From NCBI RefSeq assembly GCF_024609325.1, contig NZ_JANHMQ010000001.1, positions 186,001-250,000 on the forward strand: 64,000 nucleotides of DNA. The letters are read 5' to 3'. The stretch is from Geothrix fuzhouensis. GTDB lineage: Bacteria; Acidobacteriota; Holophagae; Holophagales; Holophagaceae. Both the position numbers and the translations under genes were made by a program. A model generated the notes under the pieces. That model did no database searches. It was not told where the DNA came from and saw only the letters and a list, made by a program, of their open reading frames with translations. Each line of letters begins with the position of its first letter. Position 1 is the first letter of the stretch. Of this stretch, positions 25,576-29,414 are shown piece after piece.

Positions 25576-26385
25576 TCAGAGGAACCGCAGGGGTTTCTCT
25601 TCGGGGGCGAAGCCGTGGCGTACGGCTTTTTCGAAGAAGAGGGCGAGGCTTTCGCGCTCGGCTTCGCCCAGGGTGTAGCTGATGTTCTCGGTAAGGTACT
25701 CGTGCAGCTCGATCTTGGTCCAGCCGATGGTGCGCCGGGCCTCTTCAATGATGGCGGGCAGTTGGGCCTGGCCGATCTCGAAGCTCTTGTGGAAGAAAGA
25801 GGCCACCCCGCCGGGCACCGGCAGTTCCGGGGCATCCTTGCGGACCAGCCAGAGCGCGAAAACAAAGGGCAGGCCTGTCCAGGCGTGCCACTCCTCGGCC
25901 AGGTCCAACACGAACAGGCCCTGGCGGGGGGCCCGCATGGCGGAGTCGCCGATCATCAGGGCCGCATCGTTCGCCTCGAGCATGGCGGGGAGATCGGGGC
26001 CCATGTCGGTCACGGCCGGGACCACCCCGTAGCGCTCCCGGAGCAGCAGCTGGGCCAGCACCACGCTGGTGCGACTGGAGGTGTCCAGGGCCAGGGTCTG
26101 GATCTGCTCGGGCGGAACTTTAGAAAGGATCACCACGCTGCGCACCCGCTTGGGGGAGGCGATGCAGAGACCGGGAACGATGCGGAGGTCGGGGATCCTC
26201 AGATACTCGATGGAGCTGACGATGCCCGCGTCCACCTCCCCGGACCGCAGCCGATCGGCGCAGGCGGAGGGGTAGTGGAACTTCAGGTGGAAATGCTCCC
26301 AGCCGAGGCCGTGCTTGAATCCATGGTTCAGGGGGGCGGCGTTCAGATAATCGATGATGGACAGGCGGAATGGTTCAGTGGCCAT
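25576..26385 (-). CDS. mqnA: Chorismate dehydratase MqnA, futalosine menaquinone pathway
   Basis: A 269-residue protein of the MqnA/MqnD periplasmic-binding-like fold. MqnA converts chorismate to 3-[(1-carboxyvinyl)oxy]benzoate, the first step of menaquinone synthesis by the futalosine route. Family features are the opening LSIIDYLNAAPLNHGF, then VDAGIVSSIEYLR, LALDTSSRTSV and ALMIGDSAMRA. Its presence suggests the organism uses the futalosine rather than the MenF-MenD route. It is divergent from the methyltransferase-like gene with only about 34 bases between starts. Confidence in MqnA over MqnD is good because of the SIDYLNxxPL opening. Confidence 0.9.
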   Translation of the reverse strand: MATEPFRLSIIDYLNAAPLNHGFKHGLGWEHFHLKFHYPSACADRLRSGEVDAGIVSSIEYLRIPDLRIVPGLCIASPKRVRSVVILSKVPPEQIQTLALDTSSRTSVVLAQLLLRERYGVVPAVTDMGPDLPAMLEANDAALMIGDSAMRAPRQGLFVLDLAEEWHAWTGLPFVFALWLVRKDAPELPVPGGVASFFHKSFEIGQAQLPAIIEEARRTIGWTKIELHEYLTENISYTLGEAERESLALFFEKAVRHGFAPEEKPLRFL

Positions 26386-26419
26386 GGCAACAGTCTACCG
26401 ACCCTGCGATGATTCCCTG

Positions 26420-26884
26420 ATGGTCCTCTGGCATTACGAGCTCAATACCCCGATGGGGCCGATGCGTGCCGCCTTCGACGGCCGGGGAAGGCTGCGGGAG
26501 TTGGCCGTGGAGGGGCTGGATCCGCGGAAGACCAGCCCCCTGCCGCCCAAGGAGCAGCGCGAGGCCAAGCGGTACCTGGACCGTCAACTCGAAGCCTATT
26601 TGGCGGGCACCCTGCGCACCTTCACGGTGCCGGTGGACCCCCAGGGCTCACCCCTGCAGCTGCGGATCTGGGACACCGTGCGGACCATTCCCTATGGCCA
26701 ATACCGGCTCCCCGGCGATCTCGGCGCCTGGCTGGGGGTGGACGAGGAACTCATCGTCATGGCCTGCGTCGCGAACCCCATCATCCTGCTCGTGCCCACC
26801 CACCGGGTGGCCCTGCCCGGCGAGGGGGCCCTTCCAAAAGCCCTGAGGGAACTGGAATCGGGCATGGGTTGGCGGAGACCTTGA
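26420..26884 (+). CDS. Methyltransferase-fold (MGMT/Ogt-like) protein lacking the catalytic cysteine
   Basis: A 154-residue homologue of the O6-alkylguanine-DNA methyltransferases encoded just downstream. The N-terminal ribonuclease-H-like half (HYELNTPMGPMRAAFDG) and the LRIWDTVRTIPYGQY helix are conserved. The active-site motif reads PTHRV where functional enzymes have PCHRV, so it cannot accept the alkyl group. The Arg-finger segment found in its paralogues (GRANGANP, ARASGANP) is here VMACVANP, and the GYAGG stretch is gone. Known alkyltransferase-like proteins keep DNA binding with Trp at this place; Thr is different. It may be a lesion-binding protein or a decaying paralogue. The ATG at 26420 has no strong ribosome binding site. 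Confidence 0.75.
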   Translation: MVLWHYELNTPMGPMRAAFDGRGRLRELAVEGLDPRKTSPLPPKEQREAKRYLDRQLEAYLAGTLRTFTVPVDPQGSPLQLRIWDTVRTIPYGQYRLPGDLGAWLGVDEELIVMACVANPIILLVPTHRVALPGEGALPKALRELESGMGWRRP

Positions 26885-26885
26885 T

Positions 26886-26904
26886 CGGTTTTAACAAAAA
26901 ACCG
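26886..26904. promoter_or_regulatory. Inverted repeat between the Cys-less homologue and ogt
   Basis: Arms cggtttt and aaaaccg flank aacaa, 2 bases after one gene and 22 before the next start. It could be an operator for the Ada-type regulator or a weak terminator; the sequence does not decide. Confidence 0.3.
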
Positions 26905-26926
26905 TGATTCTGCCATCCTGGTGCCC

Positions 26927-27439
26927 ATGAACGGGCCCTTCCATCTGCTGTCCACGCCCCTGGGTGACCTGGGCGCGGCCTTTGATGGCGCGGGACATCT
27001 GGTTCGGCTGGATCGCCTGCACGGGCGCCCACCGCTGGCTCCCGCTGGCCCTGTCCCGAAGAGCCTGCCCTTCCTCAAGCGGCAACTGGATTCCTATTTC
27101 TCGGGCAACCTCCGGGACTTCAACATCCCCATGCTCGCGGCGGGCACAGATTTCCAGCGGCGGGTGTGGAAGGAACTGCAGAACATCCCCTACGGCCAGA
27201 CCATCTCGTATTTGGAACTGGCGCGGCGCCTGGGGGATGAGAAATGCATCCGCGCGGCGGCCCGGGCCAGCGGGGCCAACCCCATTGCCATCCTCATCCC
27301 CTGCCACCGCGTCATCGGGTCCGATGGATCCCTGGTGGGCTATGCCGGCGGGCTCGATATGAAGGAGTTCCTCCTGCGACTGGAAGGTGCGCTGCCCAAG
27401 GCCCCGCCTCAGCCCCGCCTGCCGCTGGAGTGGGACTGA
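26927..27439 (+). CDS. ogt: Methylated-DNA--[protein]-cysteine S-methyltransferase (first copy)
   Basis: A 170-residue suicide enzyme that removes O6-alkyl groups from guanine. The C-terminal DNA-binding domain is intact: DFQRRVWKELQNIPYGQTIS, then ARASGANPIAILIPCHRVIG with the acceptor Cys and LVGYAGGLDMKEFLL. The N-terminal half is the usual RNase-H-like fold. A GTG two codons upstream is a possible start, but ATG at 26927 is preferred. It is the second of four consecutive alkylation-repair genes. Confidence 0.92.
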   Translation: MNGPFHLLSTPLGDLGAAFDGAGHLVRLDRLHGRPPLAPAGPVPKSLPFLKRQLDSYFSGNLRDFNIPMLAAGTDFQRRVWKELQNIPYGQTISYLELARRLGDEKCIRAAARASGANPIAILIPCHRVIGSDGSLVGYAGGLDMKEFLLRLEGALPKAPPQPRLPLEWD

Positions 27440-27492
27440 GAAATAATTCCGGCGCCGCCCATCGGAGGACTTCCCCCGCCTGGGCTCCTAGC

Positions 27493-28914
27493 ATGGGATT
27501 CATGCGCTGGTCGGACGAGCACCTCTACGAACGGATCCTGGCGAAGGATGCCTCCTTCAACGGGCGGGTGCTCACGGGTGTCCTGACCACCGGGATCTAC
27601 TGCCTGCCCTCCTGTCCGGCGCGGAAGCCCCTGGCCCGAAACGTGCGGTTCTTCGCGGACGAGGCCACGGCACAAGCGGCGGGCCTCCGCCCCTGCAAGC
27701 GCTGCCGGCCCGATGCCTTCTACCGGGGCGAGGATGCGGACCTGGCCCGGCTGGAAGACGCCATGGCCCAGGCGGTGGCGGATCCTGCGGCTTTTCAGGA
27801 GGCAGGTGCCCTGGCGGAAGCGGCAGGGGTCGGGCTCACCAAGCTGAAGCTCTTGTTCCGGGACCATGCCCACACCCAGCCCGCGGCGTTCCTCCAGCGG
27901 GCCCGCATCCAGGCCGCCTGCGCCCGGCTGGATGCCGGCGAAGGATCCCTCCTGGACCTGGGTGCCGCGGTGGGATTCGAAAGCCCTTCGGGTTTCCACG
28001 AAGCCTTCCGGCGGCAGACCGGCCTCGCGCCAGGAGCCTATCGCGACATGCTGGGCTCGGATCGATTCACCCTGCCGCTGCCAGAGCGCACCCGGCTGGA
28101 CGACCTGCTGCGGTTCCATGGCCGCGATCCCGAAAGCGTCTCCGAGCGAGTGGAAGGCGCCACCCTGCGCAAAGCCGCCCATTTCGCCGGGAAGCCGGGG
28201 GTGCTGAGCCTGGCTTTCGATTCCGGGAGCGTGTCCGTGTCCCTGGAGGGCGCCCACGGGGCCAGCGCCATGGCGGAAGCCCATCGGGCGGCCCTGCGTC
28301 TGCTGGCCTGGCACGGGGATCCGGCCCCCTTTGAAGATGCGCATCCGACCCTGGCCCGAAGCCGGGAGGGCCTGCGCGTGCCCCTCACCCTGGATCCCTT
28401 CGAGGCCCTGGTCTGGGCCATCCTGGGCCAGCAGGTGAACCTGGCCTTCGCCTACGCCCTCCGGCGCGATCTGCTCCGCCTGACGGGCACGCCGGTGGGT
28501 GACCTCATGGCCCATCCCGAGGCCAAGAGCATCGCGGCGCTCGATATCGGAGAGCTGCTGGCCCGGCGGTTCTCGCGGCGCAAGGCAGAGTACCTCCTGA
28601 ATGCAGCAGGGAAGGTCGCTCAGGGGGAGCTGCGGCTGGAGGGGCTGCTCACCGCCACTGGAGCCGGGAAAGCGCTCTTGGCTTTGCGGGGCTGCGGGCC
28701 CTGGACGGCCCAGTACGTGCTGATGCGTGGCCTGGGCTTCCGGGACTGCGTGCCCGTGGGGGATGCGGCCCTCACCTTGGCCCTGCAACGCTGGTTCAAG
28801 CTCGACGCGCGTCCTGATGGCCCGGCCACCACCCGTCTGATGGCACCCTTCGCGCCCCACCGCAGCCTGGCCACCTTCCATCTCTGGGCCAGCCTGAAAG
28901 GAGTACCCGCATGA
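27493..28914 (+). CDS. Ada-N / AraC / AlkA fusion: regulator and 3-methyladenine DNA glycosylase
   Basis: A 473-residue fusion. Residues about 1-80 are the Ada N-terminal zinc domain (ILAKDASFNGRVLTGV, YCLPSC and RPCKRCRPDAF, giving the four Cys that bind zinc and accept methyl from phosphotriesters). Residues about 90-180 are an AraC-type helix-turn-helix (GVGLTKLKLLFRDH, GFESPSGFHEAFRR). The rest is AlkA: an N-terminal domain, then HhH-GPD with ILGQQVNLAFA, GCGPWTAQYVLMRGLG and the catalytic Asp in PVGDAAL. It should both switch on the adaptive response when methylated and excise alkylated bases. The Ada methyltransferase domain is missing but supplied by separate neighbours. The stop overlaps the next start (ATGA). 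Confidence 0.9.
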   Translation: MGFMRWSDEHLYERILAKDASFNGRVLTGVLTTGIYCLPSCPARKPLARNVRFFADEATAQAAGLRPCKRCRPDAFYRGEDADLARLEDAMAQAVADPAAFQEAGALAEAAGVGLTKLKLLFRDHAHTQPAAFLQRARIQAACARLDAGEGSLLDLGAAVGFESPSGFHEAFRRQTGLAPGAYRDMLGSDRFTLPLPERTRLDDLLRFHGRDPESVSERVEGATLRKAAHFAGKPGVLSLAFDSGSVSVSLEGAHGASAMAEAHRAALRLLAWHGDPAPFEDAHPTLARSREGLRVPLTLDPFEALVWAILGQQVNLAFAYALRRDLLRLTGTPVGDLMAHPEAKSIAALDIGELLARRFSRRKAEYLLNAAGKVAQGELRLEGLLTATGAGKALLALRGCGPWTAQYVLMRGLGFRDCVPVGDAALTLALQRWFKLDARPDGPATTRLMAPFAPHRSLATFHLWASLKGVPA

Positions 28915-29414
28915 CCGGGATTCATCGATTCGATACTTCGCTTGGTCTGCTTCAGGCTGCATTTGATGCCGACGGTGCCGTGATCTACCTGGGCTTCGCG
29001 GACCACGAATTCCGCGAGCCCCTGCTGGCAAAGCTGGCCCGGCTGAGCCCGGTTATGGAACCACCCGCCAGGGCTTTGGCGCACCTCCGGGAGCGGCTGG
29101 AAACCTATGCGGCAGGCCACCGGGCGGCTTTCGACGTGCCCTTCCGCCTCCACGGCAGTCCTTTCGAGCAGCGTGTCTGGGCCGAACTTCAGCGCATCCC
29201 CTTCGGCGAAACCCGCAGCTACGGCCAGCTGGCCGCGGCCCTTGGCGATCCGAACCTCAGCCGGGCCGTGGGCCGGGCCAACGGCGCCAATCCCATGTCC
29301 ATTCTCGTGCCTTGCCACCGGGTGATCGGTACCAGCGGCAGCCTGACGGGTTATGCGGGCGGCCTGGGGATGAAGGAGCGGCTGTTGCGGCTGGAGGGTG
29401 CTATCCGAGGTTGA
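28911..29414 (+). CDS. Methylated-DNA--[protein]-cysteine S-methyltransferase (second copy)
   Basis: A 167-residue O6-alkylguanine methyltransferase. FEQRVWAELQRIPFGETRSY, VGRANGANPMSILVPCHRVIG with acceptor Cys and Arg finger, and GYAGGLGMKERLLRLE are all intact. It starts within the stop of the Ada/AlkA gene, so the two are translated together, effectively replacing the missing C-terminal domain of Ada. It converges on speD, the two overlapping by 14 bases at their 3' ends. Confidence 0.93.
   Translation: MTGIHRFDTSLGLLQAAFDADGAVIYLGFADHEFREPLLAKLARLSPVMEPPARALAHLRERLETYAAGHRAAFDVPFRLHGSPFEQRVWAELQRIPFGETRSYGQLAAALGDPNLSRAVGRANGANPMSILVPCHRVIGTSGSLTGYAGGLGMKERLLRLEGAIRG

Follow-up and report, generated by a model that had tools for sequence, protein, structure and literature searches.

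A cysteine-less alkyltransferase homologue conserved beside an intact paralogue in Geothrix

Why would a genome keep, directly beside an intact O6-alkylguanine alkyltransferase (AGT), a homologue of that enzyme without the catalytic cysteine? The question is raised by a short gene of Geothrix fuzhouensis, here called the pseudo-AGT, which lies in the 64,000-nucleotide stretch of DNA that was analysed as a whole (the window) and which had been the subject of a preliminary description made from the sequence alone. To our knowledge, alkyltransferase-like proteins (ATLs) are the only well-described non-catalytic relatives of AGTs. A search of the open-access literature found no report of the present subfamily, which is weak evidence of absence given that subscription papers lay mostly outside its scope.

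The locus and its conservation within the genus

The pseudo-AGT reading frame runs from an ATG at 26420 to a stop at 26884 and encodes 154 residues, in agreement with its previous description as an open frame of near-normal size. The features of the locus are as follows.

25576-26385, minus strand: mqnA-type menaquinone biosynthesis gene, divergent from the pseudo-AGT and 34 bp away, a landmark for the conserved position of the locus
26420-26884, plus strand: pseudo-AGT, 154 residues with a full AGT fold (predicted) and a PTHRV motif, without flipping Tyr, Arg finger or GYAGG loop
26420-26647, plus strand: N-terminal domain of the pseudo-AGT (residues 1-76), its most constrained part, with the flap motif DPR[KQ]TSPLPP..QREAKR
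26648-26764, plus strand: degenerate helix-turn-helix segment of the pseudo-AGT (residues 77-115), its least constrained part
26765-26767, plus strand: codon for Cys116 of the pseudo-AGT, a residue shared by all 41 full-length orthologues
26798-26800, plus strand: codon 127 of the pseudo-AGT (Thr, ACC), corresponding to the catalytic Cys of active AGTs; Ala, Ser, Thr, Cys or Val across the 41 full-length copies
26927-27439, plus strand: OGT2, a Cys-intact AGT (PCHRV, Tyr, Arg finger, GYAGG), immediately downstream of the pseudo-AGT at 44 of 44 loci
27502-28914, plus strand: AdaA-AlkA fusion (Ada zinc domain, AraC-type helix-turn-helix and HhH-GPD glycosylase), in the same-strand run as the AGT genes
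28911-29414, plus strand: OGT3, a second Cys-intact AGT (PCHRV), whose start overlaps the AdaA-AlkA stop

The pseudo-AGT scores 30.7 bits against PF01035, for which the curated cut-off is 27 (Pfam), and matches positions 2-55 of the 81 in the profile; the match does not reach the last part of the domain, which includes the GYAGG loop. The genome holds six PF01035 loci, so that active AGTs are not scarce in it, and in the window the AdaA-AlkA fusion is placed between the intact OGT2 and OGT3. Both of these neighbours read PCHRV where the pseudo-AGT reads PTHRV, just as the preliminary description had reported, and the GYAGG stretch that it found missing is indeed absent from the window frame, with no GYxGG-like loop in any of the 41 full-length copies. 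Its account of the Arg finger holds in part: the segment VMACVANP is as quoted and the finger is lost, but the finger had been placed slightly wrong. By human AGT numbering we place the finger Arg of OGT2 at the first R in CIRAAARA, nine positions ahead of the Asn; at this place the pseudo-AGT has lost the Arg together with a deletion of 2-3 residues. Two further features had been overlooked, namely that Pro has taken the place of the base-flipping Tyr and that VMACVANP contains a Cys (Cys116) that is invariant among the full-length orthologues. The pseudo-AGT thus lacks four features of an active AGT (catalytic Cys, flipping Tyr, Arg finger and GYAGG loop).

A scan of positions 26200-27500 for promoter and terminator consensus sequences gave no match. 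A CTGC[CG]AT..T-like stretch lies at 26404-26413 and again at 26910-26919, just 5' of the start codons of the pseudo-AGT and OGT2. It recurs ahead of the gene in many relatives of the pseudo-AGT and might serve leaderless promoters as an extended -10 element.

The named relatives are Geothrix species and Holophagaceae metagenome-assembled genomes. We found the locus in 44 of 47 genomes of the same genus, with 41 full-length copies, two copies cut by the assembly (a gap within the gene in G011, a start at the contig edge in G022) and one remnant, in G037 (L074:5821-6070), where an internal deletion has removed most of the pseudo-AGT and left mqnA and OGT2 intact, making it a natural gene deletion. 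These last three copies were excluded from the conservation and omega counts. Whether relatives keep the gene beside ogt had been proposed as a check, and OGT2 adjoins the pseudo-AGT at all 44 loci. The mqnA gene lies head-to-head with it at 43 of the 44, which is every Geothrix locus where the contig extends far enough, the two genes being 34 bp apart in the window and 309 bp apart in G015. Three of the 47 genomes (G023, G026 and G040) gave neither the pseudo-AGT locus nor an mqnA match; because mqnA is missing too, the locus is probably just unassembled there, a real loss being less likely, although G026 is 93% complete.

The AdaA-AlkA fusion gene is fragmented in G029 and G021 (L047:5063-5457; L055:5063-6129) and missing from the locus in G013, G036 and G038, all of which retain OGT2 and the pseudo-AGT.

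Beyond the genus, a profile of the orthologues at E <= 1e-20 matched 37 of 396 genomes of the phylum, an even draw from a larger group searched at a cut-off strict enough that distant relatives may be missed. Many of the matches in these 37 genomes are ordinary AGTs. The same family accounts for 36 of them; the 37th match, in a genome of another family (G429), was rejected as a pseudo-AGT, being an ordinary PCHRV AGT.

Active-site loss and reversed domain constraint

Across the full-length copies, the catalytic position is occupied by Ala in 24, Ser in 8, Thr in 5, Cys in 3 and Val in 1, so that 38 of 41 have a residue other than Cys and none has Trp; the partial G022 copy has Asp. On the tree (midpoint root) the site changed at least 11 times, including a single change to Cys. 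The three Cys-bearing copies form one nested clade and still lack the Tyr, the Arg finger and the loop; most simply, the Cys was re-gained there. The Thr on which the preliminary description had dwelt is therefore one among several drifting small residues, with little meaning in itself, and the idea that it has taken on a new role in catalysis or binding was rejected because the site drifts across orthologues.

The residues flanking this site, P126, H128, R129 and V130, do not vary among the 41 copies. The same holds for Asn119 and Glu146, which by human numbering we take to be the hinge Asn and the Glu of the AGT active site, His128 and Arg129 being its His and Arg. In all, 58 of the 154 positions are invariant across the 41 genomes. 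The losses are equally uniform: none of the 41 copies has a Tyr at residue 98, an Arg in residues 107-117 or a GYxGG-like loop. A residue-by-residue table was made for 14 of the 41.

The best predicted model (27 rows) had a pLDDT of 86.7 and a pTM of 0.80, the other four having pLDDT values from 80.3 to 57.7, and its top structural match was the Mycobacterium tuberculosis OGT (MtOGT; 4wx9), with Z 18.9 and 2.3 A over 145 residues. The pseudo-AGT is thus predicted to have the two-domain AGT fold, while ATL structures align with the model only from residue 76 onward (Z 8.2-8.9, 75-78 residues).

These data bear on two ways in which the protein might still act on alkylated DNA. The first, lesion reading with an altered finger, is unlikely because the Arg finger, flipping Tyr and active-site loop are absent from all 41 copies. 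In its ATL form, the protein would sense lesions and flag O6-alkylguanine for excision repair, with an unusual residue in place of the Cys. The replaced Cys, the retained HRV and AGT fold and the alignment of the C-terminal part with ATL structures would fit such a sensor; yet the pseudo-AGT has an N-terminal domain, which ATLs lack, as its most constrained part, it has lost the residues just named throughout, and its Asn hinge is invariant (41 of 41), so that we consider an ATL-type role improbable on these sequence features.

The second would have the nucleophile moved to Cys116, which may sit in the old pocket with His128, Asn119 and Glu146 and act in alkyl transfer or as a thiol sensor. 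Cys116 is invariant in all 41 pseudo-AGTs and has no Cys counterpart in nine Cys-intact orthologues from other genera (described below) or in 14 of 14 OGT2 rows, and the old site still has its Asn, His, Arg and Glu. Against this, the flipping Tyr, Arg finger and loop are missing, and Cys116, whose position presumably corresponds to human Met134, aligns with a Cys in the Ada protein of E. coli (1sfe), which has the normal catalytic Cys as well, so that a structural role suffices for it. A relocated nucleophile therefore seems very improbable.

Is the gene simply decaying? The preliminary description had judged it to be maintained, had suggested a dN/dS analysis and had named stops or frameshifts in relatives as signs of decay. 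In a codon model of the 41 genomes, whole-gene omega was 0.064 for the pseudo-AGT and 0.061 for OGT2, values that are approximate, with branch lengths taken from one nucleotide tree of both genes and only scale, kappa and omega fitted. The pseudo-AGT value is far below 1 (2dlnL 2750 against omega = 1), and the assembled parts are without a real break at 43 of the 44 loci, the deletion in G037 being the only one. An early-stage pseudogene would account for the missing catalytic residues and for that large deletion, but it counts as refuted by the low omega over the 41 genomes, the unbroken frames and the 58 invariant positions also speaking against it, and we regard it as almost certainly wrong. 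The earlier judgement of a maintained gene is thus upheld.

Selection is unevenly spread along the gene. By region, omega in the pseudo-AGT was 0.036 for the N-terminal domain, 0.111 for the helix-turn-helix segment and 0.058 for the C-terminal part, against 0.106 for the N-terminal and 0.028 for the C-terminal domain of OGT2. Pairwise identity over the 41 genomes follows the same pattern (pseudo-AGT, N 0.855 and C 0.685; OGT2, N 0.681 and C 0.917), the opposite trends of the two genes being found simultaneously in 806 of 820 genome pairs. OGT3 behaves as OGT2 does, with identities of 0.641 (N) and 0.867 (C), the N-terminal value being the lower one in all 136 pairs from the 17 genomes in which it was collected. 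Constraint is therefore reversed: the N-terminal domain is the conserved half of the pseudo-AGT and the variable half of the adjoining intact AGT. In reviews, the N-terminal domain is likewise said to be the less conserved half of AGTs generally (PMC10779285, PMC7216122). Four-fold site entropy is flat along the pseudo-AGT gene (1.07-1.16 bits, with only 8 usable codons in the helix-turn-helix part), and because such sites vary about equally in all regions, the constraint acts on the protein; nucleotide-level or overlapping-gene constraint was rejected on the same grounds as the cause of N-terminal conservation.

Descent from an active alkyltransferase at the same chromosomal place

The pseudo-AGT descends from an active AGT that occupied the same place on the chromosome. 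Nine Cys-intact orthologues were identified in other genera (G050-G053, G060, G062-G064 and G072, from genera g3, g4, g5, g7, g8 and g10). In a 52-row tree, several inner branches of which are weak, these nine group with the pseudo-AGT clade, and OGT2 together with G054 forms a separate clade. A tenth Cys-intact row in the pseudo-AGT clade, G048 of g2, has a very long branch and was excluded from the count. The mqnA gene adjoins seven of the nine, the exceptions being G050 and G051.

The nine differ in what they have kept besides the Cys. Tyr, Arg and Cys are all present in G052, G053, G063 and G064; Gln replaces the finger Arg in G050 and G051; in G060 and G062 the Tyr is replaced by Cys and the Arg by His; and G072 has Phe for Tyr and Gln for Arg. 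The loss is thus graded: five of the nine have lost flipping residues, the Arg finger in each case, and have kept the catalytic Cys.

The Cys-intact orthologue of g10 at L082:3242-3760 is a natural intermediate: Phe replaces its flipping Tyr, Gln replaces its finger Arg, and its loop is altered.

No separate OGT2-type gene was found in the nine Cys-intact genomes, where the best OGT2 match is the orthologue itself; two of the nine are less than 82% complete, so that such a gene could be missed. N-terminal identity already slightly exceeds C-terminal identity in this group, at 0.687 against 0.658 for the four fully intact orthologues and 0.621 against 0.566 for all nine, implying that the role of the N-terminal domain predates the loss of the Cys and need not involve OGT2. 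Elsewhere, G054 has a gene of the OGT2 clade at the mqnA place without a pseudo-AGT, and four g6 genomes have at this place an AGT of 60-64% identity that is nearer OGT2. For the g6 AGT, a tree that joins it to OGT2 in one clade is not rejected (p-AU 0.45).

A second Cys-less AGT homologue is present in three of six genomes of genus g9 (G066, G067 and G070), with PSHRV or PTHRV at the active site and without the Tyr, Arg finger or loop:

L089:6018-6491, L093:2206-2676 and L096:6031-6486: Cys-less AGT homologue of g9

These genes form their own clade on a long branch, and their Cys was likely lost independently of the Geothrix pseudo-AGT, although a tree that unites the two in a single clade is not rejected (p-AU 0.21). 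Neither mqnA nor another AGT match was found within the stretches examined around them. In L096 the upstream gene has the Pfam domains of an ABC-F type ATPase and is closely matched in L089 and L093, and an S9 peptidase gene lies on the opposite side in L096 and L093.

Possible roles and comparison with known systems

That the pseudo-AGT is a maintained, non-catalytic protein in which the Thr is nothing special can be held with high confidence. More tentatively, we propose that it works as a protein-protein partner, likeliest in assemblies with OGT2, a mechanism that we infer and hold at somewhat less than even odds. For the two parts jointly we would put the probability at about 0.38. In these soil and sediment bacteria, the protein has probably turned into a helper instead of a repair enzyme.

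An active AGT at this chromosomal place lost lesion handling (Arg finger, Tyr and loop) and its nucleophile, and has been retained through purifying selection mainly on the N-terminal domain. The protein might then act through protein contacts of that domain, for which the partner most at hand would be OGT2, and in a mixed assembly it could seed, space or stabilise AGT clusters on DNA without itself being consumed. A mixed assembly with OGT2 is our first choice because OGT2 adjoins the gene and the N-terminal domains of AGTs are known for cooperative assembly. Cooperative AGT complexes require N-terminal domain residues (PMC10779285), and in MtOGT the R37L change in the N-terminal flap makes binding to methylated DNA ten-fold weaker with the rate unchanged, R37 being suggested to hold the flap required for cooperative clusters (PMC5751216). 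The DPR[KQ]T motif of the pseudo-AGT aligns with the MtOGT PS[R/K]T stretch that contains R37.

Several observations tell against a partnership with OGT2. The counterpart of R37 is Lys in 32 copies and Gln in 9, never Arg; the N-terminal constraint is older than the loss of the Cys; and the g9 homologue has no other AGT match nearby. A fused-chain model of the pseudo-AGT and OGT2 (pLDDT 43, pTM 0.27) gave no usable interface and counts neither for nor against. In addition, G054, the g6 genomes and G037 have an OGT2-like gene without an intact pseudo-AGT, so that OGT2 is not strictly dependent on it.

Some of the same evidence favours a new role apart from OGT2, in which the N-terminal domain would contact another protein or a small molecule, or the protein would regulate the mqnA or ogt promoters. 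The N-terminal constraint predates Cys loss and is present where OGT2 is absent, OGT2-like genes exist elsewhere without a pseudo-AGT, and mqnA is head-to-head with the gene at 43 of 44 Geothrix loci. A DNA-binding regulator, however, fits poorly with a helix-turn-helix segment that is the least constrained region (omega 0.111) and with the lack of Arg in residues 107-117, and a role at the mqnA promoter with the absence of the mqnA link in g3 (L081, L083). A role apart from OGT2, though unlikely if taken singly, is nearly as likely as a mixed assembly with OGT2, the reading that we prefer.

Whichever partner is involved, the fate of the pseudo-AGT is the opposite of that of ATLs: the lesion-reading half decays, and the little-understood N-terminal domain stays under strong selection. 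Nature has preserved a series (all elements intact; Arg finger lost and Cys kept; all lost; gene deleted) that makes the roles of the AGT N-terminal domain and of clustering directly testable, for instance in Geothrix fermentans DSM 14018, G. campi and G. rubra.

Among known systems, the two-domain AGTs (MtOGT; MGMT/Ogt/Ada-C, PF01035) share with the pseudo-AGT the two-domain fold, the N-terminal domain with its flap, the Asn hinge and the active-site His, Arg and Glu. They differ in having the catalytic Cys, flipping Tyr, Arg finger and GYAGG loop, and in conserving the C-terminal rather than the N-terminal half.

ATLs such as S. pombe Atl1, E. coli ATL and the V. parahaemolyticus protein (2kif) are likewise AGT homologues that lack the catalytic Cys and retain HRV. 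In TTHA1564 of Thermus the Cys is replaced by Ala. This protein is classed as an ATL (PMC7216122). ATLs have no N-terminal domain and no Asn hinge, conserve the Arg finger and Tyr, and in most cases carry Trp instead of the Cys (PMC10779285). The pseudo-AGT, in contrast, has the N-terminal domain as its most constrained part, has lost the Arg and Tyr, keeps Asn119 in 41 of 41 copies and has a drifting small residue at the Cys site, with Trp in none of the 41. The preliminary view, which set the protein apart from the known class of ATLs, is therefore well founded.

In the trypanosome AdoMetDC prozyme and the dead deoxyhypusine synthase paralogue, a dead paralogue activates a live enzyme through a heteromer (PMC5201418, PMC3663545). 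Here the comparison concerns only how such a pair works: the folds are unrelated, the pseudo-AGT offers only its fixed adjacency to OGT2 (44 of 44 loci), and OGT2-like enzymes persist in some genomes without the dead paralogue. It is a speculative and rather unlikely prospect that a prozyme-like system exists in direct DNA repair, in which, of a tandem AGT pair, one member would have the catalytic C-terminal domain and the other would be a non-catalytic subunit driven by its N-terminal domain and controlling the clustering of the suicidal enzyme on DNA, with a similar and perhaps independent loss in another genus of the family. Differing from ATLs in three features (N-terminal domain, Arg and Tyr, Asn hinge) and lacking the catalytic features of AGTs, the pseudo-AGT is best called a new variant within the AGT family.
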